This document shows, in pieces, positions 19,932 to 38,627 of a stretch of DNA of 64,000 nt. Made by a program: the position numbers and the translations under genes. Below the pieces are notes generated by a model. The model was not told where the DNA came from, searched no databases, and saw nothing but the letters and a program-made list of their open reading frames with translations. Position 1 is the first letter of the stretch; each line of letters starts with the position of its first letter. The DNA is taken from contig NZ_JBBNAD010000006.1 of the NCBI RefSeq assembly GCF_037996765.1, forward strand, positions 248,001 to 312,000, given 5' to 3'. The DNA comes from Bdellovibrio sp. GT3 (lineage in GTDB: Bacteria > Bdellovibrionota > Bdellovibrionia > Bdellovibrionales > Bdellovibrionaceae).

Positions 19932-20460
19932 AAAGCAGGACACTCGTTGCCACAAACTTCCGTCATTGAAAAGCACCCCACAGAAATTTAATGATTCTGT
20001 TAGACAAAATAGTTGAAACGAAATTTCTGTCGAACTGTTTTTCTTTTTCAAATAGTGACACCGCCGGGATTCACAAGGCCAGTGCGGGGTTCATAGCCAT
20101 TTCCACGCAAATTCTTGCGCACACTTCGCACATCTGCGCAGAAGCTTGCCGAAAAATAGCTCAAATATTTCGTCTAAAAGTTCTCCAATTTCTGAGAAGT
20201 TCTTAAAAAAACACAGACTTAGCGCCAATTTCTTACAGGTATTTCCAGCAAAACGTCCATAATGTTGACGACTGAAAATTATTTTTTCTGTGCTTCAACA
20301 CTCCACCTCGTATGATTTCAATGGGTTAGTGCGCCTCATTCTGAAACCGATTTTGAATAAAAAAACAAAATCGCTAGGTTGGGGCCAATTTCAGTTTTCG
20401 CTGTAATTAAACGAAACTGAATCCATCACGAACATGGTGGGGCTCAGGAGGGCAAACCGT
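19932..20460. other. 529-bp non-coding region upstream of the gliding operon
   Basis: No convincing gene on either strand. The right part carries two small stem-loops (20348-20373 and 20390-20421) close to the operon start, so it probably holds the promoter and a structured leader. I cannot assign -35/-10 boxes with confidence. No T-tract terminator for mazG is obvious. Confidence 0.5.
20348..20421 (+). promoter_or_regulatory. Two stem-loops in the leader of the gliding operon
   Basis: CGATTTTG (20348-20355) pairs perfectly with CAAAATCG (20366-20373). Then TTCAGTTTTCG (20390-20400) pairs with CGAAACTGAA (20412-20421) with one bulge. Both lie 40-110 bases before the vWA gene start. The pairs are seen directly; a regulatory role is inference. 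Confidence 0.35.
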
Positions 20461-21477
20461 ATGATCAATCAAATCGCTCGCAAATCAGTAGTAGTTGCTT
20501 CAGCAATTTCAATGCTTGCTGGTTGCGGTAAAAGCGGAGGTTCTTACTCGACCCTCGCTGACGCTGATTCTTATAAGCAGGAAGCTGCCTACGTTCCGAA
20601 AAAGATCGACATCCTTTGGATCATTGATAATTCCGGCTCCATGCAATCCTCACAAAAAAACCTGGCTGACAACTTCAAGTCGTTCATTCAACGCTTCCAA
20701 AGCAACAACAATGACTTCCGTATGGCAGTTGGAACAACAGACGCGTATAAAAGCTCAACCTTGGCGCGCCTTAGAAACAATGCCGGTTACTATGTGATGG
20801 ATAAAAATACTCCGAACCTTGAAACTGTTTTCGTAAATACTATTAAACAAGGTATCAATGGTTCTGGTGACGAGCGCGCATTCCAAAGTATGAAGGACGT
20901 ATTGGCTTTGCCAGCGAACTCTACATTCCGTCGCCCTGATGCATTCTTGGCAGTCATCATTGTATCTGACGAAGAGGACTTCTCTCACTCAGGTTCAATC
21001 TCAACTATCAATGAAAGCTATACGAATCCAAATCTGTATACCGTACAAAGCTTTATCGATTGGATGGACGCATACACTGGTGGCATCGCCAGCGGCAGAA
21101 ACTACTCGATTTCAAATATTGCAATTCAAGATGAGACTTGCCGCAAATCTCTAGGTTCTGACAAGTTCCCAAAACGCTACCACGAGATCACACAGAAAAC
21201 TGCCGGTATTAACGGTGACCTGTGTGCGGACTTCGGTCAAACACTGGAAATCATCTCTGACTCTATCGCCCAACTTTCATCTTCGTTTAAGCTGACTCGT
21301 GAGCCAATCCCTGAATCCATCGTGGTTACAGTGAATGGCAGCATCGTGGCTCGTGATTCTGTAAACGGCTGGACTTATGATGCAACAACTATGACTATCA
21401 CTTTCCACGGTTCCGCAATTCCGGCAGCTAGTGCAGATGTGAAAATCAACTTCGATCCAAAATCGATCAAGATCTAA
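20461..21477 (+). CDS. vWA-domain lipoprotein, candidate CglB-like adhesin
   Basis: A 338-residue lipoprotein: signal peptide ending in lipobox LAGC, then a von Willebrand factor A domain (about residues 40-215). The MIDAS is complete: DNSGS, a Thr in VGTTDAY and an Asp in IIVSDEEDF. A short C-terminal beta domain follows (ESIVVTVNGSIVARDSVNGW). Start chosen is ATG 20461 because AGGAGG lies 8 bases upstream; an earlier in-frame ATG at 20434 would swallow that site. It is first in the gliding-type operon. In Myxococcus the gliding adhesin CglB is an outer-membrane lipoprotein with an integrin-like vWA fold, so an adhesin role here is a reasonable inference. Confidence 0.82.
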   Translation: MINQIARKSVVVASAISMLAGCGKSGGSYSTLADADSYKQEAAYVPKKIDILWIIDNSGSMQSSQKNLADNFKSFIQRFQSNNNDFRMAVGTTDAYKSSTLARLRNNAGYYVMDKNTPNLETVFVNTIKQGINGSGDERAFQSMKDVLALPANSTFRRPDAFLAVIIVSDEEDFSHSGSISTINESYTNPNLYTVQSFIDWMDAYTGGIASGRNYSISNIAIQDETCRKSLGSDKFPKRYHEITQKTAGINGDLCADFGQTLEIISDSIAQLSSSFKLTREPIPESIVVTVNGSIVARDSVNGWTYDATTMTITFHGSAIPAASADVKINFDPKSIKI

Positions 21478-21492
21478 GAAAAGGATTGTATA

Positions 21493-22113
21493 ATGGGTGG
21501 GGAACAATCTACAGCAGCGAATCTTGAGCAATGGTATATCCTTCGTGGGGACATGAAATACGGTCCCTACGAATATCGCTCGATGATCTCGATGATCCAA
21601 AATGCAGAGCTTCAGGATTATAACTATGCCTGGGCTCCGCACCTTGAAAACTGGACACTCGTTGGCGAGCTTCCAGAGTTTTCGAAAGACCGTCTGGCTC
21701 GTTTGATCCAAACCAAGGATCATTTGTCAGGGGCTTTCATTGAAAGAAAATTTCCGCGTAAAGATTTGAAAACTCCAATTTACGCTCACAACGATCAATC
21801 GTTCTTTGATGGGAACACATTGAGCGTCAGTGAGAACGGAGCACTGGTCCTTTTGAATGACCCGCTCCTGTACCTTGGTCAAAAAATCATGATGCATTTC
21901 AGGGTTTCTGAAAACAATCCTGTAGCATTTAATGTTCTTTGCGAAATTGTCCGAAAGAACTATTCGAAACAACGTTTAAACGTAAAATCCGGTCTGCACT
22001 ATGCTGTTCGTTTCCTCCAGGTGCCAGAGACTGGTTCGACACAATTAACTAAATGGTCTCGCGGTGGCGGTTCCAAGGAGGAAACAAATGGCATTCTTAA
22101 AGTTCATGAATGA
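21493..22113 (+). CDS. GYF-PilZ fusion protein
   Basis: A 206-residue cytoplasmic protein with no signal or membrane helix. Residues about 12-60 look like a GYF_2 domain (WYILRGDMKYGPYEYRSM, then WAPHLENWTLV). Residues about 75-180 look like PilZ: RKFPR gives the RxxxR c-di-GMP motif, and SVSENG stands in the place of (D/N)xSxxG with Ser for Asp/Asn. ATG 21493 has an AAGGA site. Its end overlaps the TolQ-like gene start by 26 bases, so the two are coupled. A GYF domain also occurs in Myxococcus GltJ. The fusion suggests c-di-GMP control of the motor. Confidence 0.75.
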   Translation: MGGEQSTAANLEQWYILRGDMKYGPYEYRSMISMIQNAELQDYNYAWAPHLENWTLVGELPEFSKDRLARLIQTKDHLSGAFIERKFPRKDLKTPIYAHNDQSFFDGNTLSVSENGALVLLNDPLLYLGQKIMMHFRVSENNPVAFNVLCEIVRKNYSKQRLNVKSGLHYAVRFLQVPETGSTQLTKWSRGGGSKEETNGILKVHE

Positions 22114-22795
22114 GTCTGGCGTCGTAGGCTGGCTGATTCTTCTAACCGGTATCGGTGCTCTGGTATTGATCGCTGAGCGCGCGAAAATGCTCTACAAAGA
22201 GTACGGTATGAATGTCGATGAGTTTATGGGCAAGGTCCAAACTCTGGTATTGGCTAAAAAACATGACGAAGCACTTCTGCTTTGCGCACAACTTGAGAAA
22301 AAACCTCTGGCTGCTGCTTTCAAAACGATCCTTGAAAAAGCTGATCGTGATGACGACACTATTTTCCAGGCTCACGACATCGCTTTGTCTGAAAACGTTC
22401 CTTTGTATACAAAACGCCTGCACTACCTTTCCATGCTTGCCAACGTTGCAACATTGATGGGTCTTTTGGGTACAATCCACGGTCTGATCCTGTCGTTCCA
22501 AGCGGTTGCGGCAGCTGACCCGGCGTTGAAACAACAACTTCTTGCTCAAGGTATCTCCGTATCCATGTATACGACGGCTTTGGGTCTGGCAGTTGCGATT
22601 CCAGCGATGGTATTCTTCTCTATCCTGACTTCCCGTCAAAACGAATTGATGGAAGATATGATGGAAAAATGCGGTAAGTTGACAGAGTTGTTGACGAGCG
22701 CACACATTCCAAATCTTTCCCGTCAAAACGTTTTCCCAGACCAGGTTGCTGCTCCAGCAGTGACTCCACCGTCTGCTCCCGGCAAGGCTTCTTAA
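22088..22795 (+). CDS. MotA/TolQ/ExbB proton-channel protein (AglR-like)
   Basis: A 235-residue inner-membrane protein with three helices: VVGWLILLTGIGALVLIAER near the start, then two in the conserved MotA_ExbB block (VATLMGLLGTIHGLILSF and TTALGLAVAIPAMVFF). It should form the pentameric stator channel with the two ExbD-like proteins encoded next. ATG 22088 has AAGGAGG at 22075-22081 and lies inside the end of the GYF-PilZ gene; the longer frame from 22064 is not needed. Counterpart of Myxococcus AglR in the gliding motor. Confidence 0.88.
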   Translation: MAFLKFMNESGVVGWLILLTGIGALVLIAERAKMLYKEYGMNVDEFMGKVQTLVLAKKHDEALLLCAQLEKKPLAAAFKTILEKADRDDDTIFQAHDIALSENVPLYTKRLHYLSMLANVATLMGLLGTIHGLILSFQAVAAADPALKQQLLAQGISVSMYTTALGLAVAIPAMVFFSILTSRQNELMEDMMEKCGKLTELLTSAHIPNLSRQNVFPDQVAAPAVTPPSAPGKAS

Positions 22796-22848
22796 TTGAA
22801 GCCTTCGGGCGTTCCTAAGGTGTGAATTAATTTTTATTGGGTGGGTAT

Positions 22849-23394
22849 ATGAGACGCGCAAGAAAAATCAAAATCAATCATAATACAGAGTTCGATCTGG
22901 ACTTGGCGCCACTGCTTGCCGTGATGGTAAAACTGGTACCGGTTCTGTTGCTCTCATCTGCATTCGTGCAGATGATGGTGATCGAAACTGAATTGCCGCA
23001 AGTCGTTTCCGAGGCGATTCAACGTAATGATGAAAAAGACAAACCAACAATCGTCGAATTGGAAGTTGACTCCAAAGTCGGTTTCACAATCATTGTGAAT
23101 AAGGCTGGCAAAGAAAGCACTGTTTCAGTTCCGTTGAAAGACGGCAACCTGGACCTGCCTGCTTTGCACCAAAAACTGGTTGAAGTTAAACAAGCCAATC
23201 CTGAAGTTTTCAAAATCGAATTGAGTCCGGACTCCAAGGTTGCTTACAACGTCATCGTCAAGGTGATGGATGAAGCCCGTCAGTCCAGAGATTCAAAGAT
23301 CACATTCCCCGTGTTTGATACCAAACAGGGCAAAAATGTGGACACCAAATACATGTTCCCAGAGGTTGTCTTTGCGAACATGATGGAGGGCTAG
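22849..23394 (+). CDS. ExbD/TolR-family protein lacking the channel Asp
   Basis: A 181-residue ExbD/TolR-like protein: short basic N-terminus, one membrane helix, periplasmic domain. In the family the helix begins P-x-x-D, and that Asp carries protons. Here the segment reads DLAPLLAVMVKLVPVLLLSS, with Ala24 at the Asp position and Lys28 one helical turn on. So it should not conduct protons itself. ATG 22849 is preferred over TTG 22837. Next to a normal paralogue (23398-23895), it may form a mixed heterodimer. Confidence 0.8.
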   Translation: MRRARKIKINHNTEFDLDLAPLLAVMVKLVPVLLLSSAFVQMMVIETELPQVVSEAIQRNDEKDKPTIVELEVDSKVGFTIIVNKAGKESTVSVPLKDGNLDLPALHQKLVEVKQANPEVFKIELSPDSKVAYNVIVKVMDEARQSRDSKITFPVFDTKQGKNVDTKYMFPEVVFANMMEG

Positions 23395-23397
23395 ATC

Positions 23398-23895
23398 ATG
23401 GCACGCCGTCGTGGATTTGAGCTTAAAAAACAAAGTTCAACGTTTACACTGAACATCACCTCGATGACGGATATGTTTACCATCCTCTTGGTGTTCCTAT
23501 TACAAAGTTATTCGACTTCAACTGTAGAGATCACTCCGGAAAACGGGTTGCGCCTGCCGACTTCGGCAACAACGGCAAATCCCGTGGAAGCGGTGAAAAT
23601 CTCTCTCTCCAAGGATTCGTTGAAAATCGACAAGGACAAGATCGCTGATGTGAAGGACACAGAATTCCTTCCGCAGGACCTTGAGGCCACAGATTCGAAC
23701 TTTATTAAGCCATTGTTCGCAAAACTGGACCATCTTGCGAAAAATTCAACCGAAAAGGAGAAGTGGGTGAAAGAAGGCAAAATTCTTTTGCAGGCAGATC
23801 GTGACCTACCTTATGCGACTCTTCGCAAAGTTATGTACACTGCTTCAATGGCCGGCTTTCCTCAGTTGAAATTGGTGACCATGGTCGGAGAATAA
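23398..23895 (+). CDS. ExbD/TolR-family protein with intact channel Asp (AglQ/AglS-like)
   Basis: A 165-residue protein with one N-terminal helix, NITSMTDMFTILLVFLLQSY; Asp25 sits in the position of the proton-carrying Asp of ExbD/TolR. The periplasmic domain follows (GKILLQADRDLPYATLRKVM is typical of the family's C-terminal half). It starts 3 bases after the previous stop. It is the likely force-generating rotor or plug subunit of the proton motor with the TolQ-like protein. Confidence 0.87.
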   Translation: MARRRGFELKKQSSTFTLNITSMTDMFTILLVFLLQSYSTSTVEITPENGLRLPTSATTANPVEAVKISLSKDSLKIDKDKIADVKDTEFLPQDLEATDSNFIKPLFAKLDHLAKNSTEKEKWVKEGKILLQADRDLPYATLRKVMYTASMAGFPQLKLVTMVGE

Positions 23896-23899
23896 CACT

Positions 23900-26800
23900 A
23901 TGAAGCTGCGCACATTAACTCTCATAATTGGTATCCATCTATTCTCGTTGTTGTGCTTTGCAGAAAAGAATGAAAAAGGACTTATCCCTGAAGTTCGCCT
24001 GACGAACGATGAGGGAGAAAACGAAAAGAAAGCTTTGCGATCCGAGCTGATGATCACTCGCTCTGAAAACAAAGCCATCGAGTCCCTTCAGGGTGTGATC
24101 AAAAGAAATAAAGGATCTTCCAACGAGGCGGAACTTTGGAACCGCCTTGCTGAGCTTTACATGCGTCGTTCAAAATCAGGTCGTTTCTTCGACCTGAATC
24201 GCGACAACCCGATGATGAAGCTCTCCCCTTTCCCGATTCCCAATGAAAAAGGCACTGAATCCGTTAAACGCGCGATGAAGATCTATTCCAAAATCGAAGT
24301 GGACTTCCCGAAGTTCCGCGATATGGATGCAGTACTTTTCAATAACGCCTTCGCTCACCAACAGGTGGGTCAAATGAAGGGCTCCAATGAACTCTATCAG
24401 CGTCTATTGACGAAATTCCCAAAATCACCATTGGTACCGGATGGTACTTTGGCTTTGGGTGAATTGCTTTACGACCAGGGCAAATTTGCTGCGGCTTTGG
24501 AGCAGTTCGAAAAACTTGAAAAATTCCCAAACAGCCGTGTTTATTCCTACGGTATGTATAAGGCCGCATGGTCCTGCTACAATATGCGCGACAGTGAGTG
24601 CGGTATCAAAAAACTGGTACAGGTTGTAAAAAACAATCCTGCGCTTAAAGATGGTGAAGTCCCAACCAACCGTCACAATCTTCGCAAAGAGGCTTTGCGT
24701 GATTTGACTATTTTCATTGGTGACTCCTACCCTGCAAATAAACTTTATTCTTTCTTTGAAGGCATCACAAACCAGGATGAACTTGGCGAATCAATGATGA
24801 ATCTTGCCAAGCTTTACGACTCTCACAGCCGTCAAAAGGAAATGAACATCTTCCTGGATGAGTACATTGAGCAACATCCAAACGGTCCGGACGTAGTTAA
24901 ATCCCATTTGCTACTGGTTGAAGCCAACGAAACGTTGAAAAAACGTGACCTGGTTCTTAAGCACATGCAAATCGCCTCTGACCACTGTCGCAATGGTTCC
25001 GACTGGAAGTCTTCTCAAAAGAAAGACACCATCATCACTTCGTGCGAAGAGTCTTTCCGTCGTACCAGCCTGGATATGACCAAAAAATGGTGGGATATCT
25101 GGCTTAAAAACAAACAAAACACTGAGTTCTCCAACCTGACTCAACAACTTTTCAAATTGATGCTGGATAACGAAGATCCTGCAAAACCGGATTTGAAAAC
25201 ACGCTTTGCCTATGCGGAACTTCTGTTCCAAATTGGCAATTACGATCAGGCATCAGCACAATATAAAATGGTGGGTGACAAAACCACTGATGCAACAATG
25301 AAACATGACGCCAACTATGCGGCCCTTTTCTCGATTGAGAAATCCATCGAGAAAAAATCAGACTCTGAAAAAGAGGCGCAACGTAAGGAGTTGGCTGCCA
25401 ACTATCTGGCAAAACACCCTACTGGGAAATATGCCACAGCAGTTAAATTCAAAATGGGTCATATCGCCTATCAGGAAAACAACTATCCTGAAGCGGAAAA
25501 ATGGCTGAAACCTTTGACCACGGTCAAAGGAAATGAAAATGCAGATATCCGTCGCAAATCAGAAGATCTGGTTTTGGATATGCTGAACATTAAGAAAGAC
25601 TATGTGGGTATCAAAGAGTTCTCGAAGCTTATCATGGCTTCAACGACCGATGCCACACGCAAGAAAAGCATGAACAAGATCCAGGAAGAAGCTCACTTCA
25701 CTGAAATTCAGGAGTTTGCAAAAACTGGAGACAAGGATCAAGCTGCACAAAAGCTGATGGCTTACGCCAAGGAGCATGACGGTTCCAAACTTGCTCAGGA
25801 TGCTTCATGGCAGGCGATCGGGATTCTGTATACTGAAGGAAAGGTTTTTGACGCCGCAGAGATGTCTGTGAAATACGCGCAAAAACATCCTGATGACAAA
25901 AAGAATCTGGATGCCTTGAAAGATGCAGCAAAATCTTACACTGACGTCGGCCAGACAGCGAAAGCTGCAGAAACCCTGGTTAAGGTCGCTGACATGGACA
26001 AAAAAGCCCGTAACCAATACTTGGAAACAGCGGCTGACATCTATGTCATGGAAAAACGTGTGAAAGATGCACGTTCTGCTTACATGGGTATTTTATCTGC
26101 AGCCGACAGCAAAACAACAGAACGCATCTATGGCAAACTTTTGGATTCCTATAAGAATGACAAAGGCTCTGCTGAGTATGAGAAACTGCAAAATCAAATC
26201 TCTGCGAAAGGTATCGAACCTTATACGACAGAGGCCATGATTGAACGCGCTCAAAAACTTCTGGATTCCGGAAAGTTGACTGCAGCCTTTGACCTTTCCA
26301 TGAAAGCCAATGGCCGCTCGGTGCCTGCAGAGACACGCGCTGCTGCCCGCCTGATTCAAGCGGCAGTTCTTGAAAAAGAATTTATTTCTCAAAGCGTAAA
26401 AGCCCGCGAGGAAAAATTCGCAACTGTCCTTGCGATCAAGACAGAAAAGCTGGACAAAGCCCAAACCGCCTATGTGGGTGCTTTGAAAATGTCCAAGGAT
26501 CCATATCAACAATTGGAAGCCTTGCGCGGTATTGACCGTGTGTATGGCAACTACATCGATTCATTGACGTCGATGCCACTGCCCGCTTCTTTGAGCCCTG
26601 ATGATCAAAAACAACTTCGTGGTGAATTGGCTAAACTGACAAACCCAATTCAGGAAAAGAAGAACGACAATGATGCCAAATTGAAAGTTTTGGCATCCAC
26701 TGTTGGTCAAACGGCGACGGCGGTAAGAGCTTATTCAAGCATTGGTGTGGATAGAACAATCACACCGATTGCCCAGTTCCCTGCTGCCGACAAATGGGGT

Positions 26801-27616
26801 GTATTCATTCCGCAATCAGCTGATATGACAATTGGTAAAGTGTCTCGTTATGAGATTCGCCCAGGCAAAACCTGCAACAAGGCCGCTGTTATGGCCGGTC
26901 AGATTGAAAAGCTGAACGCTTTTGAAACTGCAGCAAACTGCTACGGAGCGAAACAATACGATATCGTCGAGAAGCTGGGCCTTGAGCTTGCCAAAGGCAA
27001 AGAGACACGCGCAGTGGGCTTGTTCCTTGCGAGTGTTGGCTCTGAAGCAAAAGGTTATGGCGATAAGGCAATGTGGCTAATTGATGCATCATTGAAGCTT
27101 CAACCTGAGTCATCTCCTTACGTGTATCAAAAAGGTCGCCTCACTTATCACGACTATGGAATTAAGGCCGCCATGCCCTACTTCGATAAGGCGATGAATA
27201 TGCAAATTCCTTCGACAGAAATCGAAACTTTCGCTGGAGTGAAAGCATTCTCAGAGGGAGATTTCAGTCGCGCAGTGGATAAATTCTCTGCACTGAATAA
27301 AGATCAGTTGTATACTTTAAATGTGGGAACGCTTTTGAGTGAATCATATGCTCAAAAGGGTCAGGTCGATAAAGCCTTGGCAATGATCAAAGATTTGATC
27401 ACTGCCAGCAAAAAAGACTCGGTCGACTATCTTCTGGAACAAGCTCATATCCTTGAGACTTTCAAAGGAAGCCCCACGCTAGCGTTGGATTCCTACGAAA
27501 AGGCATTCAAAGCCAGCAGCGCGCAAGCAGATTTGCGTGAATGGTTAAGCAAAAAAATTCAGTTTATTAAAAATCAAAACAAAGTCGGTCAGCACGTAAT
27601 CTCGGGAGACTTGTAG
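23900..27616 (+). CDS. Giant periplasmic TPR-rich protein (GltD/AgmU-like)
   Basis: A 1238-residue exported protein: signal peptide MKLRTLTLIIGIHLFSLLCF, then helical TPR/Sel1-type repeats over nearly the whole length (e.g. AELLFQIGNYDQASAQYKMV and AVKFKMGHIAYQENNYPEAE). There are no membrane helices after the signal. In Myxococcus the gliding machine has a periplasmic TPR protein of similar size (AgmU/GltD) placed near the stator; same context and architecture here, but I cannot confirm orthology. It begins 4 bases after the ExbD-like stop. Confidence 0.75.
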   Translation: MKLRTLTLIIGIHLFSLLCFAEKNEKGLIPEVRLTNDEGENEKKALRSELMITRSENKAIESLQGVIKRNKGSSNEAELWNRLAELYMRRSKSGRFFDLNRDNPMMKLSPFPIPNEKGTESVKRAMKIYSKIEVDFPKFRDMDAVLFNNAFAHQQVGQMKGSNELYQRLLTKFPKSPLVPDGTLALGELLYDQGKFAAALEQFEKLEKFPNSRVYSYGMYKAAWSCYNMRDSECGIKKLVQVVKNNPALKDGEVPTNRHNLRKEALRDLTIFIGDSYPANKLYSFFEGITNQDELGESMMNLAKLYDSHSRQKEMNIFLDEYIEQHPNGPDVVKSHLLLVEANETLKKRDLVLKHMQIASDHCRNGSDWKSSQKKDTIITSCEESFRRTSLDMTKKWWDIWLKNKQNTEFSNLTQQLFKLMLDNEDPAKPDLKTRFAYAELLFQIGNYDQASAQYKMVGDKTTDATMKHDANYAALFSIEKSIEKKSDSEKEAQRKELAANYLAKHPTGKYATAVKFKMGHIAYQENNYPEAEKWLKPLTTVKGNENADIRRKSEDLVLDMLNIKKDYVGIKEFSKLIMASTTDATRKKSMNKIQEEAHFTEIQEFAKTGDKDQAAQKLMAYAKEHDGSKLAQDASWQAIGILYTEGKVFDAAEMSVKYAQKHPDDKKNLDALKDAAKSYTDVGQTAKAAETLVKVADMDKKARNQYLETAADIYVMEKRVKDARSAYMGILSAADSKTTERIYGKLLDSYKNDKGSAEYEKLQNQISAKGIEPYTTEAMIERAQKLLDSGKLTAAFDLSMKANGRSVPAETRAAARLIQAAVLEKEFISQSVKAREEKFATVLAIKTEKLDKAQTAYVGALKMSKDPYQQLEALRGIDRVYGNYIDSLTSMPLPASLSPDDQKQLRGELAKLTNPIQEKKNDNDAKLKVLASTVGQTATAVRAYSSIGVDRTITPIAQFPAADKWGVFIPQSADMTIGKVSRYEIRPGKTCNKAAVMAGQIEKLNAFETAANCYGAKQYDIVEKLGLELAKGKETRAVGLFLASVGSEAKGYGDKAMWLIDASLKLQPESSPYVYQKGRLTYHDYGIKAAMPYFDKAMNMQIPSTEIETFAGVKAFSEGDFSRAVDKFSALNKDQLYTLNVGTLLSESYAQKGQVDKALAMIKDLITASKKDSVDYLLEQAHILETFKGSPTLALDSYEKAFKASSAQADLREWLSKKIQFIKNQNKVGQHVISGDL

Positions 27617-27630
27617 TATGGAGGGTACAA

Positions 27631-27879
27631 GTGAAAGCTTTCATCCAATTGATGACTGTTTTTCTTCTCTTGGGGTCAGCGACTGCCTTTGCCAAGCAAA
27701 AGACAGTCCGTAAAGTCCAAGAAGTCAATTTCGGTGATATGAACCTCAAGGGTACAATTCGTAACCCTGACGGCGCTTATCTTGTGCAAAAGCGAGGCAT
27801 CAAGTTCATGCCTCTGTACGATGTACAAAAAGATATGGATGGCCGCATCAGGGAATCAGCATTGTACTTGAACAACTAA
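27631..27879 (+). CDS. Small secreted protein in the gliding operon
   Basis: 82 residues from GTG 27631 with GGAGGG just upstream. Signal peptide (MKAFIQLMTVFLLLGSATAFA), then a short charged domain including VNFGDMNLKGTIRNPDG. This last stretch resembles linker or docking peptides found in myxobacterial gliding operons; I do not recognise a named family. Likely a periplasmic accessory subunit. Confidence 0.65.
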   Translation: MKAFIQLMTVFLLLGSATAFAKQKTVRKVQEVNFGDMNLKGTIRNPDGAYLVQKRGIKFMPLYDVQKDMDGRIRESALYLNN

Positions 27880-27905: not shown

Positions 27906-29357
27906 ATGGTCACGTTGATTGTACGTCAGTCTCTTAAGAATGGGACTGCAAAAACTTGGAAATTGAGACCAACAAGCGAAACGCAAACGTTTGGCTCTTC
28001 CCGCCTTGCGGATGTGATTTCAATTTCACCAAACACAAAAGGTATTCAAGGCCTGTTTGAATATCGTGATGGTCAATGGTTCTATGTTGACATGGATATG
28101 GCTACCTCCAGCGGATTGAAACAATCCCCAGCCATCGCCTTGAACAAAGAATCCACTGTGAACTTGAGCGATTGCACATTGAGCTTTGAGCCAGTAAAAA
28201 AAGAAACCAATCTGTATTCCCGCCTGGAAAAATCCGGCAGCGACGAATCCACAGGTAAGAAGTTTCAACTTTTCCTGGTTAAACAAAACGGCCGCGTCGT
28301 ACAGACTAAAATCCAGCCTTTGAACAAGGCTTTCAAACCAGACTTTACCAACACTAAAGTGGCTTGCGTTCCTTCACCGGAATGGCACCGTCAAAACGTG
28401 GGTGATGTCGAGGTTTCCCAAAGAACTCTTTCCATGGAAGATGCTGCTGCTATGGGACGCTTTAATACAGCGAACCTGGTGGATGAGGACTCCAAAAAAG
28501 GCGTGGTTCTGATGCTCGGTGCTGCGGCCCTGTTTGTAACAGCCGCACTATTTGGACCAAAGGGCGGTGAAACCATGGCCCAGGTCGAGCCACCGAAAAT
28601 CGCGCAAAAAATCATAGTAAAAACTGAACTTAAACCAAAGCGTAAAAGAGCCGAAGCTCCTAAACAGCAGCAGATGGCAGCCGCACCAGCAGCCGCGCCT
28701 AAACAACAGGCCGCAGCTTCCGGTGGTGGTGGCAAGCTTGCCAATATGATGAAATCGATCTCTGACGGTCGTATTTCAAAATTGATTGGTAAAGTTTCCG
28801 CGCAAGGTGCGAAAAGTGCCAACGTGATGTTCGCTCAAGGTGTTAAAGCCGGTTCCGGTCCTTCCGGTCGTGGTTTGGCAGCTGTGGGCAATATCGAACG
28901 CTCCGGTCGTGACTGGGGTGCTGCAGGTAACGGTGCAGGAGTGATGATTTCCACTAATGGCAAAGGCGGCGGTAAAAGCGCTTCCGGCATGGGTGGTCTT
29001 GCTCAAGGTGGCACTGGTAATGCCGGTGTTGGTTTGATCGAAGAGGAATCTGAAATTACTGGTGGTTTGGACCGTGAGGTTATCGCCCAGTATATCAAAT
29101 CCAAATTGGGTCAGATCCTTTACTGTTACGAACGTCAACTGAGTGCGAATCCGGATTTGTTCGGTAAAGTCGCTGTGAAATTCACGATCGGTGGTACTGG
29201 TCAGGTTGAACAGCAGCTTATTGGCGACACAACTCTGAAGAATTCAACAGTTGAAGGCTGTATTTTGAATCGTGTAGCCGCATGGAAGTTCCCTGCCCCA
29301 CAAGGCGGAACGCGCGTGCTAGTTACATATCCATTTTTGTTTAAAAGTACCAACTAG
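27906..29357 (+). CDS. FHA-like / TM / AgmX-PglI C-terminal protein (GltG/GltJ-like)
   Basis: A 483-residue bitopic protein. Residues 1-97 form a divergent FHA-like cytoplasmic domain (QTFGSSRLADVISIS), without the canonical SxxH. A single helix VVLMLGAAALFVTAALF (about 200-216) is followed by a Lys/Pro/Ala/Gln then Gly-rich periplasmic linker. The C-terminal 97 residues (387-483: DREVIAQYIKSKLGQILYCY, ending LVTYPFLF) match the AgmX/PglI domain, a TonB-like contact module. This architecture fits the Myxococcus GltG/GltJ proteins that carry motor force across the periplasm to outer-membrane partners. Confidence 0.82.
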   Translation: MVTLIVRQSLKNGTAKTWKLRPTSETQTFGSSRLADVISISPNTKGIQGLFEYRDGQWFYVDMDMATSSGLKQSPAIALNKESTVNLSDCTLSFEPVKKETNLYSRLEKSGSDESTGKKFQLFLVKQNGRVVQTKIQPLNKAFKPDFTNTKVACVPSPEWHRQNVGDVEVSQRTLSMEDAAAMGRFNTANLVDEDSKKGVVLMLGAAALFVTAALFGPKGGETMAQVEPPKIAQKIIVKTELKPKRKRAEAPKQQQMAAAPAAAPKQQAAASGGGGKLANMMKSISDGRISKLIGKVSAQGAKSANVMFAQGVKAGSGPSGRGLAAVGNIERSGRDWGAAGNGAGVMISTNGKGGGKSASGMGGLAQGGTGNAGVGLIEEESEITGGLDREVIAQYIKSKLGQILYCYERQLSANPDLFGKVAVKFTIGGTGQVEQQLIGDTTLKNSTVEGCILNRVAAWKFPAPQGGTRVLVTYPFLFKSTN

Positions 29358-29371
29358 GACGGGAGATCGAA

Positions 29372-30139
29372 ATGTTTAAGAAAACACTACTAATATTCTT
29401 CGTGATGACAGCTCAGGCTTTTGCACAAACGGCGACAACTCCGACGGCAACACCTGCAGCTAAAACGCCAGTGGATTCGCGTGGCAGTGATAAACTTGAT
29501 ATTAAAAAACTGGAAAACAAGTACTGGGCCGCTAAGGATGAAGACTTTGGCGTGGTTCAGAACCGTCGTTACGTAAAAGCAGAGCGCTTTTATCTGACAG
29601 CTCGCGGTGGTATTCCATTCAATGATGCCTTCAGTGATGGAACAGTATTAGGAGCTGACTTCGGTTACTTCTTCAATGAACGCTGGGGTGTGGAGCTTTC
29701 CTACAATAAAGCTGATTTGAAGGACAATGATTCAACTCAACAGTTTATCTCTCGTTACGCAACTGTTCCTGATCACAACGTGCTTGATTCATCTTACTTT
29801 GCATCCGTGATCTGGGTTCCGTTCTACGCGAAAATGTCAGCTTTGGATAAAGCTATCATTTACTTCGACATGGGTTTCTCTGTGGGTTTGGGTAATGTGA
29901 ACTATAACATTATCAAAGAAGAAGGTAATGAATTGAAATCCGCTATCGGTTATAAACTGGGCGTGTTCCAACAGATCTTCTTTTCTGAGCACTTTGCCTT
30001 GCGCGCTGACTTGATCAACACGTGGGCCAACGAAACACAGATGACTTATGATTCCACTCCAAGTTACAGCCCACGTAATATGGGCGATAAAATGGTGAAC
30101 GATACCTCACTGATGCTAGGTATCACTTATTGGCATTAA
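29372..30139 (+). CDS. Outer-membrane beta-barrel protein of the gliding operon
   Basis: 255 residues: signal peptide ending QAFAQ, Thr/Ala/Pro linker, then a segment LENKYWAAKDEDFGVVQNRR typical of the myxobacterial outer-membrane beta-barrel family found with gliding genes (GltA/B/H-type), then about eight amphipathic strands ending in LMLGITYWH. The predicted site is the outer membrane, where it would be the outer contact of the trans-envelope complex. Confidence 0.8.
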   Translation: MFKKTLLIFFVMTAQAFAQTATTPTATPAAKTPVDSRGSDKLDIKKLENKYWAAKDEDFGVVQNRRYVKAERFYLTARGGIPFNDAFSDGTVLGADFGYFFNERWGVELSYNKADLKDNDSTQQFISRYATVPDHNVLDSSYFASVIWVPFYAKMSALDKAIIYFDMGFSVGLGNVNYNIIKEEGNELKSAIGYKLGVFQQIFFSEHFALRADLINTWANETQMTYDSTPSYSPRNMGDKMVNDTSLMLGITYWH

Positions 30140-30175: not shown

Positions 30176-32275
30176 ATGAATAAGCCAATGAAAGCAATGT
30201 TAGTGCTGCCTTTACTGTGCAGCACAGCCTTTGCCCAGGAATTGCCGAAAGCACTGAATGTAAAAACCCAGGGGGCTCCTGCAGCTGCAAATCTGCGGGT
30301 GAAATCCTCGATGGTTCCGACTTTTGAAATCTATCAAAAGAAAACGGTTAAAGGCAAAACTGAAGTCTTTAAAGTCAAAGCGATTCCGGAGCTGAATATT
30401 GGTTCCGAGCGCACGGTTGAGGCAACTCCACTGAGCCCGCTGCGTCTGCCCGCTTCTCAACAATTGGTTGTAAAACCAGTTAAGAAAGCGCCGATGATCA
30501 ATCCAATGACTGTTAAGATTCCTCCCTACACTGCTGTGGTAGGTGCACCCAAAGTTGTAACGTCACCGGAAGCTTTCACTAAAATTCCTGACGTGAAAAT
30601 GCTGGGCTCCATTAAGGATCCGTCCGTGGAAGAACCACAAACGAATCTTATGAAGATGGATGATATGAAGCCGAACGATTACAAATTGCTTCAGGCTTTG
30701 ATCTTCCTGGAAATCCAGCAAAAATACGAAATGGCCATGGGTCTTTTCTCGGAGTTGATGGAAGATAAAGAGCACCGTTTGGAAGCTCTTTACAACTATG
30801 CGATGACGGCAAAAGGTTTGGGTCTGAATACAGAATTCAGAACTTACATGATCAAGGTATCCCAGGAGACCAAAAACAAAGAATGGCAGGAAAGAGCAAC
30901 GAAAGCTCTGGTTGAGGGCATCACTTCCCTTGAACAATCTGACATCTCTTTGATTGATCCATTGGTAACGAAATACGAAATGGATGTGACGAAGAATTCA
31001 GACTACCAGATCACTCGTGCGAAGTACTATTCTTCCATCGGTAACCTGGGCATGATGGAAGACGCATTGATGCACATCGATGAAAAGTCCCCAAAATATC
31101 CGGAAGCATTGTTGCTTTCCGGCCTGTTCAACTATCGTCAAAATAAAGTGGATGAAGCCACTGTGAACCTTGAAGCATTGCTTAAGGCCACTGATGGCGA
31201 CAAGAAATCCCAAATCAGAAACGTGGGCGCGATCACTATGGCCCGCATTCAGTTCCAAAAAAGCATGTACAAAGAGGCGTTTCAGTCTTACTTAAAAGTG
31301 GACCGCTCCTCCCCTCTTTGGTTGCAAGCGATGACCGAGAGTGCCTGGACTCAGATTCTTTCTGAGGACTATGAAGGTGCTGCCGGCAATATGTTCTCCT
31401 TGCACACGGACTTCTTTAAGAACGCTTTCAACCCGGAATCCTTCGTGGTTCGTACGGTGGGCTATCTGAACCTGTGCCAATACGGTGACGGTGTTCAGGT
31501 TCTGGAAGAGATGCGTGGCAAATACGGTCCTTGGAAAGGCAAACTTGAGGCTTATAACAAAGCCCATAAGAAGTCCACGGACTACTATGAAACTGTGAAA
31601 AACTGGGCAAAGAACTCTGACCTGAAAGAAGTCGATGGCTTGCCACGTGCTTTCATCGTGGAACTTGCGCGCCACCCTGGTTTCATGAGCATCCAAAAGC
31701 AAATCAATAACTACGAGGACGAAATCACGAAGTTCAACAAGATCTCTTTCACATTGATCAAAATGGAAAAAGAGTTCCTGACGAAAAAAGCAGAAGCCAG
31801 CAAAGACGTGGCCACTGCTAAATCAAAAGGTCGTGACACATCAAGTGCTGAGAAAAAACTTTTGAGTTACCAGATTCAATACCATATCGCGAACAAAGCG
31901 CGCACATCGATCAAGAATCTGCGCACTCAGGGTATCGCCCGTATTGACAAGGAAAAGGACGGTCTGCGCTCTGACGCCGGCAAGTCTTTGCAAGGGAACT
32001 TTAAAAACATGGTTACCAACTTAAACCGTGTTCTGGATCAAAACGACGTGCTTCAGTACGAATTGTACTCGGGCGCTGGTGAACACATCCGCTACCAAAT
32101 GGCTGGCGGTGAAGTAACTGATAAAGAACGTCCAGAGTTAAAAGTGGCTAAAGAGAAAAGCTTGAACTGGAAATTCAAAGGCGAGATCTGGGAAGACGAA
32201 GTGGGTCACTACCGTTCATCTTTGAAAAATGTCTGCGCGCAGGATAATAGCGTTGCCGGCATGAATGAGCACTAA
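30176..32275 (+). CDS. Periplasmic TPR protein of the gliding operon
   Basis: 699 residues with a signal peptide (MNKPMKAMLVLPLLCSTAFA), a Pro/Lys/Val-rich extended region (about 25-150), TPR-like helices (about 165-430, e.g. KYPEALLLSGLFNYRQNKVDEATVN) and a long helical or coiled-coil C-terminal third (about 500-640). The context suggests a GltE/AglT- or AgmK-like periplasmic or outer-membrane-linked subunit. The N-terminal Pro-rich stretch could span the peptidoglycan. Confidence 0.7.
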   Translation: MNKPMKAMLVLPLLCSTAFAQELPKALNVKTQGAPAAANLRVKSSMVPTFEIYQKKTVKGKTEVFKVKAIPELNIGSERTVEATPLSPLRLPASQQLVVKPVKKAPMINPMTVKIPPYTAVVGAPKVVTSPEAFTKIPDVKMLGSIKDPSVEEPQTNLMKMDDMKPNDYKLLQALIFLEIQQKYEMAMGLFSELMEDKEHRLEALYNYAMTAKGLGLNTEFRTYMIKVSQETKNKEWQERATKALVEGITSLEQSDISLIDPLVTKYEMDVTKNSDYQITRAKYYSSIGNLGMMEDALMHIDEKSPKYPEALLLSGLFNYRQNKVDEATVNLEALLKATDGDKKSQIRNVGAITMARIQFQKSMYKEAFQSYLKVDRSSPLWLQAMTESAWTQILSEDYEGAAGNMFSLHTDFFKNAFNPESFVVRTVGYLNLCQYGDGVQVLEEMRGKYGPWKGKLEAYNKAHKKSTDYYETVKNWAKNSDLKEVDGLPRAFIVELARHPGFMSIQKQINNYEDEITKFNKISFTLIKMEKEFLTKKAEASKDVATAKSKGRDTSSAEKKLLSYQIQYHIANKARTSIKNLRTQGIARIDKEKDGLRSDAGKSLQGNFKNMVTNLNRVLDQNDVLQYELYSGAGEHIRYQMAGGEVTDKERPELKVAKEKSLNWKFKGEIWEDEVGHYRSSLKNVCAQDNSVAGMNEH

Positions 32276-38240: not shown

Positions 38241-38627
38241 TTACGCTGCCGATGTTTGATTTCTTGCCGAGACAAAGGCACGAATCTGCCTTTTGGTGGC
38301 GAAGTTGATATTACTGAAGCTAAGACCATGGGTGACCCTAGAGTCACCCTGTTTTTTTTGAGTGGAGCGAACCACGCCACGCAGGAACACGAAGTCCCCT
38401 TGCGGGATCTGGAAGCTGACAACGACCTCGTCGCCGTCACTCAGCAGATAGTCTGAAATGATCGACATACCACCCTCACCGACCTCACCAGAATCCACCA
38501 CAAAGTAAGTGCCATCACACAGGACACCCACCTTGCGCTTCATCGCACGGCGCGGATACTGACGACGGAAGGGCTGTCCCTTGTCATCCACGGCTGGAAT
38601 GTTCATCTTCTGAAAATCACTGCTCAT
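38241..38627 (-). CDS. PilZ-domain protein
   Basis: 128 residues, nearly all one PilZ domain: basic start RRQYPRRAMKRK (RxxxR-type), then VVDSGEVGEGGMSI, where the second motif is degenerate (no Asp/Asn-x-Ser), and VSFQIPQGDFVFLRGVVR. It may bind c-di-GMP weakly or act as a non-binding adaptor. No partner domain. Stands alone between rpsT and holA. Confidence 0.8.
   Translation of the reverse strand: MSSDFQKMNIPAVDDKGQPFRRQYPRRAMKRKVGVLCDGTYFVVDSGEVGEGGMSIISDYLLSDGDEVVVSFQIPQGDFVFLRGVVRSTQKKQGDSRVTHGLSFSNINFATKRQIRAFVSARNQTSAA

Follow-up and report, generated by a model that had tools for sequence, protein, structure and literature searches.

A GYF-PilZ protein paired with the AglR-type stator across the order of Bdellovibrio: a candidate relay of cyclic dinucleotide signals to the gliding motor

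Introduction

The locus described herein raises the question of whether a PilZ protein encoded immediately before a gliding-type stator gene could pass a cyclic dinucleotide signal to that stator. The gene resides in a stretch of 64,000 nucleotides from Bdellovibrio sp. GT3 (assembly GCF_037996765.1, contig NZ_JBBNAD010000006.1, positions 248,001 to 312,000), the whole of which we call the window, and all coordinates below are those of the window unless another locus is named. We favour the interpretation, at a probability of roughly 0.58, that the protein is a cytoplasmic regulatory subunit of an AglR(QS)-type stator, wherein the PilZ domain would sense a cyclic dinucleotide, the GYF domain would be docked on a proline-rich partner, and the ligand would gate the motor. 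The evidence for this interpretation, and for several competing ones, is presented below.

Results and discussion

The GYF-PilZ gene and its protein

A single open reading frame at 21493..22113 (+) encodes a protein of 206 amino acids that we identify, from the list of reading frames, Pfam matches and the comparison with strain HD100, as the orthologue of Bd1482. Its N-terminal part is a GYF_2 domain (residues 14-63; 21532..21681 (+)) that matches PF14237 with an E value of 2.2e-8 (34.1 bits versus a curated cut-off of 25.8) and, by profile, the solved structure 7z3c. A PilZ domain follows (residues 85-187; 21745..22053 (+)), matching PF07238 with an E value of 1.1e-10 (42.2 bits versus a curated cut-off of 22.5), and the structure model of this region matches known PilZ structures. 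No Pfam match to a YcgR-type N-terminal domain was obtained in the protein, and GYF_2 occupies the region before PilZ. By inspection of the sequence, no long hydrophobic stretch was seen in the 206 residues, which end with the PilZ domain.

Both arginines of the RxxxR motif (R85-K-F-P-R89; 21745..21759 (+)) are present, and the second motif has the form SxSxxG (S111-V-S113-E-N-G116; 21823..21840 (+)), wherein Ser replaces the canonical Asp or Asn according to the alignment. The frame, its two-domain architecture, the retained arginines and this substitution are all as the initial annotation had described them. Misalignment as the origin of S111 was considered and rejected, given that Ser stands in the same column in 34 of 83 homologues.

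An AlphaFold2 model built from these 83 sequences has a mean pLDDT of 84.9, with values mostly of 82-97 in the PilZ region; it replaced an earlier model from 19 close orthologues in which the GYF domain was poorly modelled. Residues ~83-197 of the model align with the PilZ domains of MotI/DgrA, MapZ, Alg44 and YcgR (Foldseek, VIA-align), and many of the matched PilZ structures were solved with c-di-GMP. MotI/DgrA holds the top Foldseek rank and, with a VIA Z of 13.6, the highest score to PilZ structures. The GYF profile returned one significant solved structure, namely 7z3c, which is the GYF domain of GltJ, a gliding protein of Myxococcus (E 1.7e-5). The same entry is also listed by the structure search (rank 44, E 0.03), which likewise matched the eukaryotic GYF-peptide complexes Smy2 and GIGYF (Z ~6).

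When genome contigs were searched with a profile of the orthologue alignment, matches were found only in Bdellovibrio-type genomes, and no relatives of the protein were found in viral contigs. A search of the phylum outside the order gave mostly weak matches, with E values of ~1e-37 to 1e-41 only in three families (f24, f26 and f27).

A stator operon shared with HD100

The gene is preceded by that of a VWA-like lipoprotein (20434..21477 (+)), the orthologue of Bd1483 on the basis of a weak Pfam VWA match and the HD100 comparison. It is followed by the gene for a TolQ/MotA-family stator protein (22088..22795 (+)), assigned to Pfam family MotA/TolQ/ExbB with an E value of 2.5e-25 and identified as the orthologue of Bd1481 aglR (HD100 comparison, PMC2277423). 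Next are two genes for ExbD/TolR-family proteins, the first being aglQ, or Bd1480 (22837..23394 (+); Pfam, HD100 comparison, PMC9140294), and the second identified by Pfam (23398..23895 (+)). Farther downstream on the same strand are genes for a large TPR protein (23900..27616 (+); Pfam and HD100 comparison), a small conserved protein that belongs to no Pfam family (27631..27879 (+); HD100 comparison), and an FHA-like/TonB-C protein (27906..29357 (+)), whose TonB_C match has an E value of only 0.023, whose FHA-like N-terminus was recognized by inspection, and which is conserved in HD100. An outer-membrane beta-barrel protein (29372..30139 (+)) and a second TPR-type protein (30176..32275 (+)) complete the series, both from Pfam and the HD100 comparison.

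The genome that we take to be HD100 (G006) contains 18 PilZ matches, equal to the number reported for this strain, and a DgcA orthologue at 0.345 Mb. Its operon has a gene order identical to that of the window, with 55-90% identity protein by protein, and the window protein is ~78% identical to Bd1482, which likewise lies between Bd1483 and Bd1481 aglR. Medina et al. (PMC2277423) identified Bd1481 as aglR and counted Bd1483 among the genes of the gliding cluster, and the accessible part of Hobley et al. 2012 (PMC3271064) describes Bd1482 as a PilZ gene that opens the operon at its 5' end. Because the operon order matches that of HD100 and these locus assignments agree, we consider the window gene to be the orthologue of Bd1482. 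Insertions in Bd1481 and Bd1483, which flank Bd1482, impair biofilm predation (PMC2277423), and this links the operon to surface life. Annotation and family matches also suggest that the motor is orthologous to the Agl/Glt engine of Myxococcus.

The aglR frame begins with an ATG at position 22088, inside the last 26 nucleotides of the GYF-PilZ gene (overlap 22088..22113 (+)), in agreement with the overlap noted in the initial annotation. This overlap recurs throughout the genus; it is mostly 26 nucleotides, is shorter in other members, and is replaced by a 1-nucleotide gap in one. The two genes do not overlap in most other families. Translational coupling of the GYF-PilZ and aglR genes is plausible from the frame overlap, although aglR possesses a strong Shine-Dalgarno-like sequence of its own (AAGGAGG; 22075..22081 (+)) inside the GYF-PilZ frame. 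The arrangement itself exceeds chance, given that the overlap recurs in the genus and the pairing recurs across the order.

Within the window, a second PilZ protein (38271-38567 (-), a 145-residue open frame) is encoded some 16 kb away from the operon. HD100 and two further genomes (G007 and G023) likewise have PilZ matches on the strand opposite to the operon and about as far from it.

Pairing with the stator across the order

Our sample comprised 119 genomes of the order, 98 of which carry the core stator gene. At least 71 of these 98 have a GYF-PilZ gene directly upstream of aglR, on the same strand and within less than 300 nucleotides. The GYF-PilZ gene is ~1.1 kb upstream of aglR with one gene between (a VWA gene in those that were read) in at least six more, sits between the second ExbD gene and the TPR gene in at least four, and is divergent from the stator in at least one. 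The relocated copies that sit behind the ExbD pair, still in the operon, are those of G088, G059, G110 and G034 (loci L159, L160, L162 and L163). Additional adjacent copies were seen in G100, G063 and G075 on direct reading of the region, and linkage to the stator is found in nine of ten families.

The core stator and GYF-PilZ also tend to occur in the same genomes (94/4/4/17; Fisher p 2e-13, without correction for relatedness). A crude chance model assigns 71 of 98 a vanishing probability, the true value being less extreme as a result of relatedness. Relatedness does not explain the rearrangements of the gene within the cluster, and a gene that is relocated and yet kept within the cluster is under pressure to remain there. 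GYF-PilZ is an order-wide partner of the AglR-type stator, a pairing that is newly described here.

Conservation of the nucleotide site

Only seven columns are invariant across the 83 homologues, whose mean identity is 41%: W14, G24, P25, R85, R89, G116 and F146. Of the seven, R85 and R89 form the RxxxR pair and G116 is the final Gly of the second motif. S113 is retained in 80 of the 83, and Q36, W47 and W54 of the GYF domain are nearly invariant. The c-di-GMP site usually includes the Asp or Asn of the second motif. At this column the homologues have E (37), S (34), N (4), D (3), Q (3), T (1) or L (1); the family thus departs from the canonical [D/N]xSxxG, keeping the Ser and Gly, with D or N in only seven proteins. 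The combination of an altered base-reading position and conserved phosphate-binding arginines fits either a changed specificity or weaker binding.

The loss of Asp/Asn in 76 of the 83 homologues might also indicate that the PilZ domain has lost useful nucleotide binding and that the protein serves the stator as a structural adaptor or an assembly factor, resembling the degenerate PilZ proteins of type IV pili. Precedents exist in Myxococcus xanthus, where, in the accessible part of PMC8316039, PlpA affects motility without binding c-di-GMP and the c-di-GMP binding of PixA is dispensable for its motility role. The same part of that report describes PixB as binding c-di-GMP despite lacking the second-motif Ser in both of its PilZ domains, and for this reason loss of the motif alone is not decisive. 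Moreover, both arginines persist in 83 of 83 homologues and SxxG is nearly invariant while most other columns vary, and D or N survives in the seven relatives just counted. On balance, we judge a purely structural role to be somewhat unlikely, and we continue to favour a PilZ domain that senses a ligand.

The identity of the messenger

Lowry et al. 2022 (PMC9140294) found that DgcA (Bd0367) is a hybrid enzyme that controls gliding through 3',3'-cGAMP. Its S214D form makes c-di-GMP but no cGAMP, supports neither gliding nor exit from prey, and lowers the transcripts of bd1480, which belongs to the Bd1482 operon, and of bd3099 (PMC9140294). Accordingly, DgcA/cGAMP acts on the transcription (or stability) of gliding genes, and some of the control is exerted before any motor protein comes into play.

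Bdellovibrio sp. GT3 has a DgcA orthologue with the same Hypr-type serine, in the motif DHLFGS, and this serine is invariant in all 39 readable DgcA orthologues across the order (L212; L215-L254). One of the 39 comes from a genome that lacks the stator operon. From these sequences, cGAMP signalling looks ancestral to the order. The order-wide DHLFGS does not by itself implicate GYF-PilZ, because G029, G036 and G046 keep the enzyme and lack both the stator and GYF-PilZ. Many reduced genomes have neither the Hypr enzyme nor the stator and GYF-PilZ (94/4/8/13, p 5e-9, not corrected for relatedness). In G022, which is otherwise complete, the DgcA match covers only residues 1-98 in a 102-residue frame (G022:C1:344878-345174), possibly as a result of a broken gene or a sequencing error.

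The initial annotation proposed the protein as a direct c-di-GMP receptor through which DgcA commands gliding at prey exit. In the accessible part of Hobley et al. 2012 (PMC3271064), Bd1482 is already labelled a candidate receiver of DgcA signals for gliding, and thus the proposal has a precedent. The domain and the gene position fit it. However, the DgcA variant that makes c-di-GMP without cGAMP does not glide (PMC9140294), and a 2025 proteome (PMC12546842) shows that a different cluster, Bd2368-2377, is raised at prey exit. The latter result speaks against the exit role, and the Bd1482 operon may accordingly serve surface gliding and not exit. We consequently give the direct c-di-GMP proposal very little credence. 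What survives of the earlier claim is the tie to the gliding motor, in that gene order links a PilZ protein with invariant arginines to a gliding-type stator across the order. The wording ‘direct c-di-GMP input’ is not the best supported, because both the S214D form of DgcA and the conserved serine point to 3',3'-cGAMP as the gliding messenger. No protein receptor for 3',3'-cGAMP in Bdellovibrio is named in the searchable literature.

A proline-rich tail on AglR as a candidate GYF ligand

GYF domains bind proline-rich peptides, and the C-terminus of TolQ/ExbB-type proteins is cytoplasmic. The AglR orthologues of Bdellovibrio terminate in a TPPSPGxKxS-like tail, which in the AglR of the window is APAVTPPSAPGKAS (22751..22792 (+)) and which we consider a candidate ligand for the GYF domain. 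A PP pair is present within the last 22 residues of 49 of 67 linked AglR proteins versus 2 of 45 reading frames of the window, and is missing in the other 18 linked genomes. The tail is absent from the TolQ paralogues that were read (L059, L061, L064, L179 and L180). Three genomes whose operon has lost GYF-PilZ (G077, G054 and G103) also lack the AglR tail; six operons without an adjacent GYF-PilZ gene still have it.

Further information is provided by GYF position 34, which is Met in the window protein (Met34; 21592..21594 (+)). We take this position to be equivalent to the Trp of the classical signature GPF-x4-M-x2-W, a residue that contacts proline ligands. Family f10 retains GYF-PilZ beside the stator, but its AglR lacks PP and its GYF domain has Ala or Gly in place of Met at position 34 (L142, L145-L147, L150 and L152-L158). 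Overall, the PP tail is found in 0 of 12 proteins with Ala or Gly at position 34 versus 49 of 55 with Met or Leu, a contrast that is largely that of one clade, f10. Four genomes have Met34 yet no proline tail on AglR. Family f10 is a natural experiment for the docking idea, and the correlated sequence change makes docking of the GYF domain on the AglR tail a testable lead.

A paralogue with two GYF domains

Outside the family of the window, the stator-linked protein mostly has two GYF domains. Bdellovibrio holds both forms, with the one-GYF form in the operon (Bd1482 type) and the two-GYF form elsewhere. The two-GYF PilZ gene of HD100 is immediately followed by a gene for a VWA lipoprotein (L066:6909-8749 (-)), which is related to the VWA gene of the operon, and VWA genes accompany GYF-PilZ genes repeatedly. 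Judging by position and description, the two-GYF gene is probably Bd3100, a PilZ gene that falls after the attack phase, and its VWA neighbour is probably Bd3099. With this assignment, both DgcA-dependent transcripts, bd1480 and bd3099, would neighbour a GYF-PilZ gene. A FastTree phylogeny of GYF-PilZ cores, in which some inner supports are low, places the operon form of the family in one clade and groups the Bdellovibrio two-GYF copies with the stator-linked copies of other families.

These observations bear on the idea that GYF-PilZ is a real cyclic dinucleotide receptor that acts elsewhere, on localisation, type IV pili or gene expression, with its linkage to the stator reflecting co-expression only. 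The changes in bd1480 and bd3099 transcripts do indicate that DgcA/cGAMP exerts some control off the motor (PMC9140294), and the two-GYF form stands apart from the stator operon in Bdellovibrio. Yet this displaced copy groups with operon-linked ones and adjoins a VWA gene as the operon copy does, and across nine families the linkage has survived several rearrangements, in addition to the co-occurrence described above. We therefore regard action away from the stator as quite improbable, and retain the stator as the favoured site of action.

A third PilZ protein of GT3 (L059:11753-14330 (-)), which has a weak GYF match, is encoded upstream of another TolQ/ExbD operon, with a gene resembling those for M14-type carboxypeptidases in between. 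No PilZ match was found at the corresponding place in HD100. The GYF-PilZ protein of C4 in GT3 was dropped as a second true stator partner, given that HD100 has no PilZ match at the corresponding cluster.

Proposed mechanism

The favoured interpretation builds on the domains, the conservation of their motifs, the order-wide linkage, the co-occurrence with the stator, the proline tail and the predicted fold. From these we infer ligand binding, docking on AglR and the direction of control. A rise in a cyclic dinucleotide, most likely cGAMP from DgcA, would be sensed by the PilZ domain, which might recognize 3',3'-cGAMP and/or c-di-GMP via RxxxR and SxxG and close on the ligand through R85 and R89. 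The GYF domain would hold the protein on a partner rich in proline, for which the cytoplasmic C-terminal tail of AglR is the most likely candidate, and ligand binding would alter its grip on the stator and thereby start, stop or gate the Tol/Agl gliding-type motor. The protein could act as a brake, a clutch or a starter, and a starter or a release would agree with the loss of gliding that is seen when cGAMP is missing. Transcriptional control by the same messenger may coexist with such action at the stator.

A more specific proposal is that GYF-PilZ is a protein receptor for 3',3'-cGAMP that acts on the motor. The Ser or Glu of the second motif would then suit one guanine and one adenine, the GYF domain would clamp the proline tail of AglR, and the conserved cGAMP synthase of the order would signal directly to a Tol/Agl-type stator. 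We offer this version tentatively and think it unlikely to be correct in full.

Comparison with known systems

The closest known counterpart is Bd1482 of HD100, the orthologue at the same locus, which had been suggested as a receiver of DgcA signals for gliding. In its accessible part, Hobley et al. 2012 (PMC3271064) does not take up the GYF domain, the stator pairing across the order or the cGAMP question. The probable Bd3100 is a paralogue that shares the GYF-PilZ core and adjoins Bd3099, a DgcA/cGAMP-responsive gliding gene; it differs in having two GYF domains and Glu at the Asp/Asn position, and in lying outside the stator operon in Bdellovibrio.

MotI and YcgR are PilZ proteins that act on the flagellar motor. 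GYF-PilZ is predicted to share the PilZ fold with MotI/DgrA of Bacillus subtilis and YcgR of Escherichia coli, and it resembles them in being paired with a stator of the MotA/TolQ superfamily. Unlike these proteins, it has a GYF domain in place of the YcgR N-terminal domain, is associated with a gliding-type stator, carries Ser for Asp/Asn, and is tied to its stator by gene linkage and the candidate tail.

GltJ of M. xanthus (7z3c) has a related GYF domain, and both proteins belong to gliding-machine gene sets. Whereas GltJ, which we take to be a membrane protein of the machinery, spans the membrane and exposes its GYF domain to the cytosol, GYF-PilZ has no long hydrophobic stretch on inspection and joins its GYF domain to PilZ in what looks like a soluble protein. 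MglA is the factor to which GltJ answers (PMC12288465). PixA, PixB and PlpA of M. xanthus are, like our candidate, PilZ proteins that influence gliding, but their architectures differ, they alter reversals, and the accessible part of PMC8316039 does not describe them as partners of a stator.

In summary, GYF-PilZ is probably a part that relays chemical signals to the gliding motor of Bdellovibrio and its relatives, as judged from sequence and gene order. In flagella, PilZ proteins are known to control stators directly, and the order-wide linkage suggests that the same logic extends to a motor of the gliding type, where the adaptor would be a GYF domain related to that of GltJ. Together with its double-GYF paralogue, the protein opens the question of a cGAMP receptor to a direct test, which would need two proteins, two ligands and one peptide.
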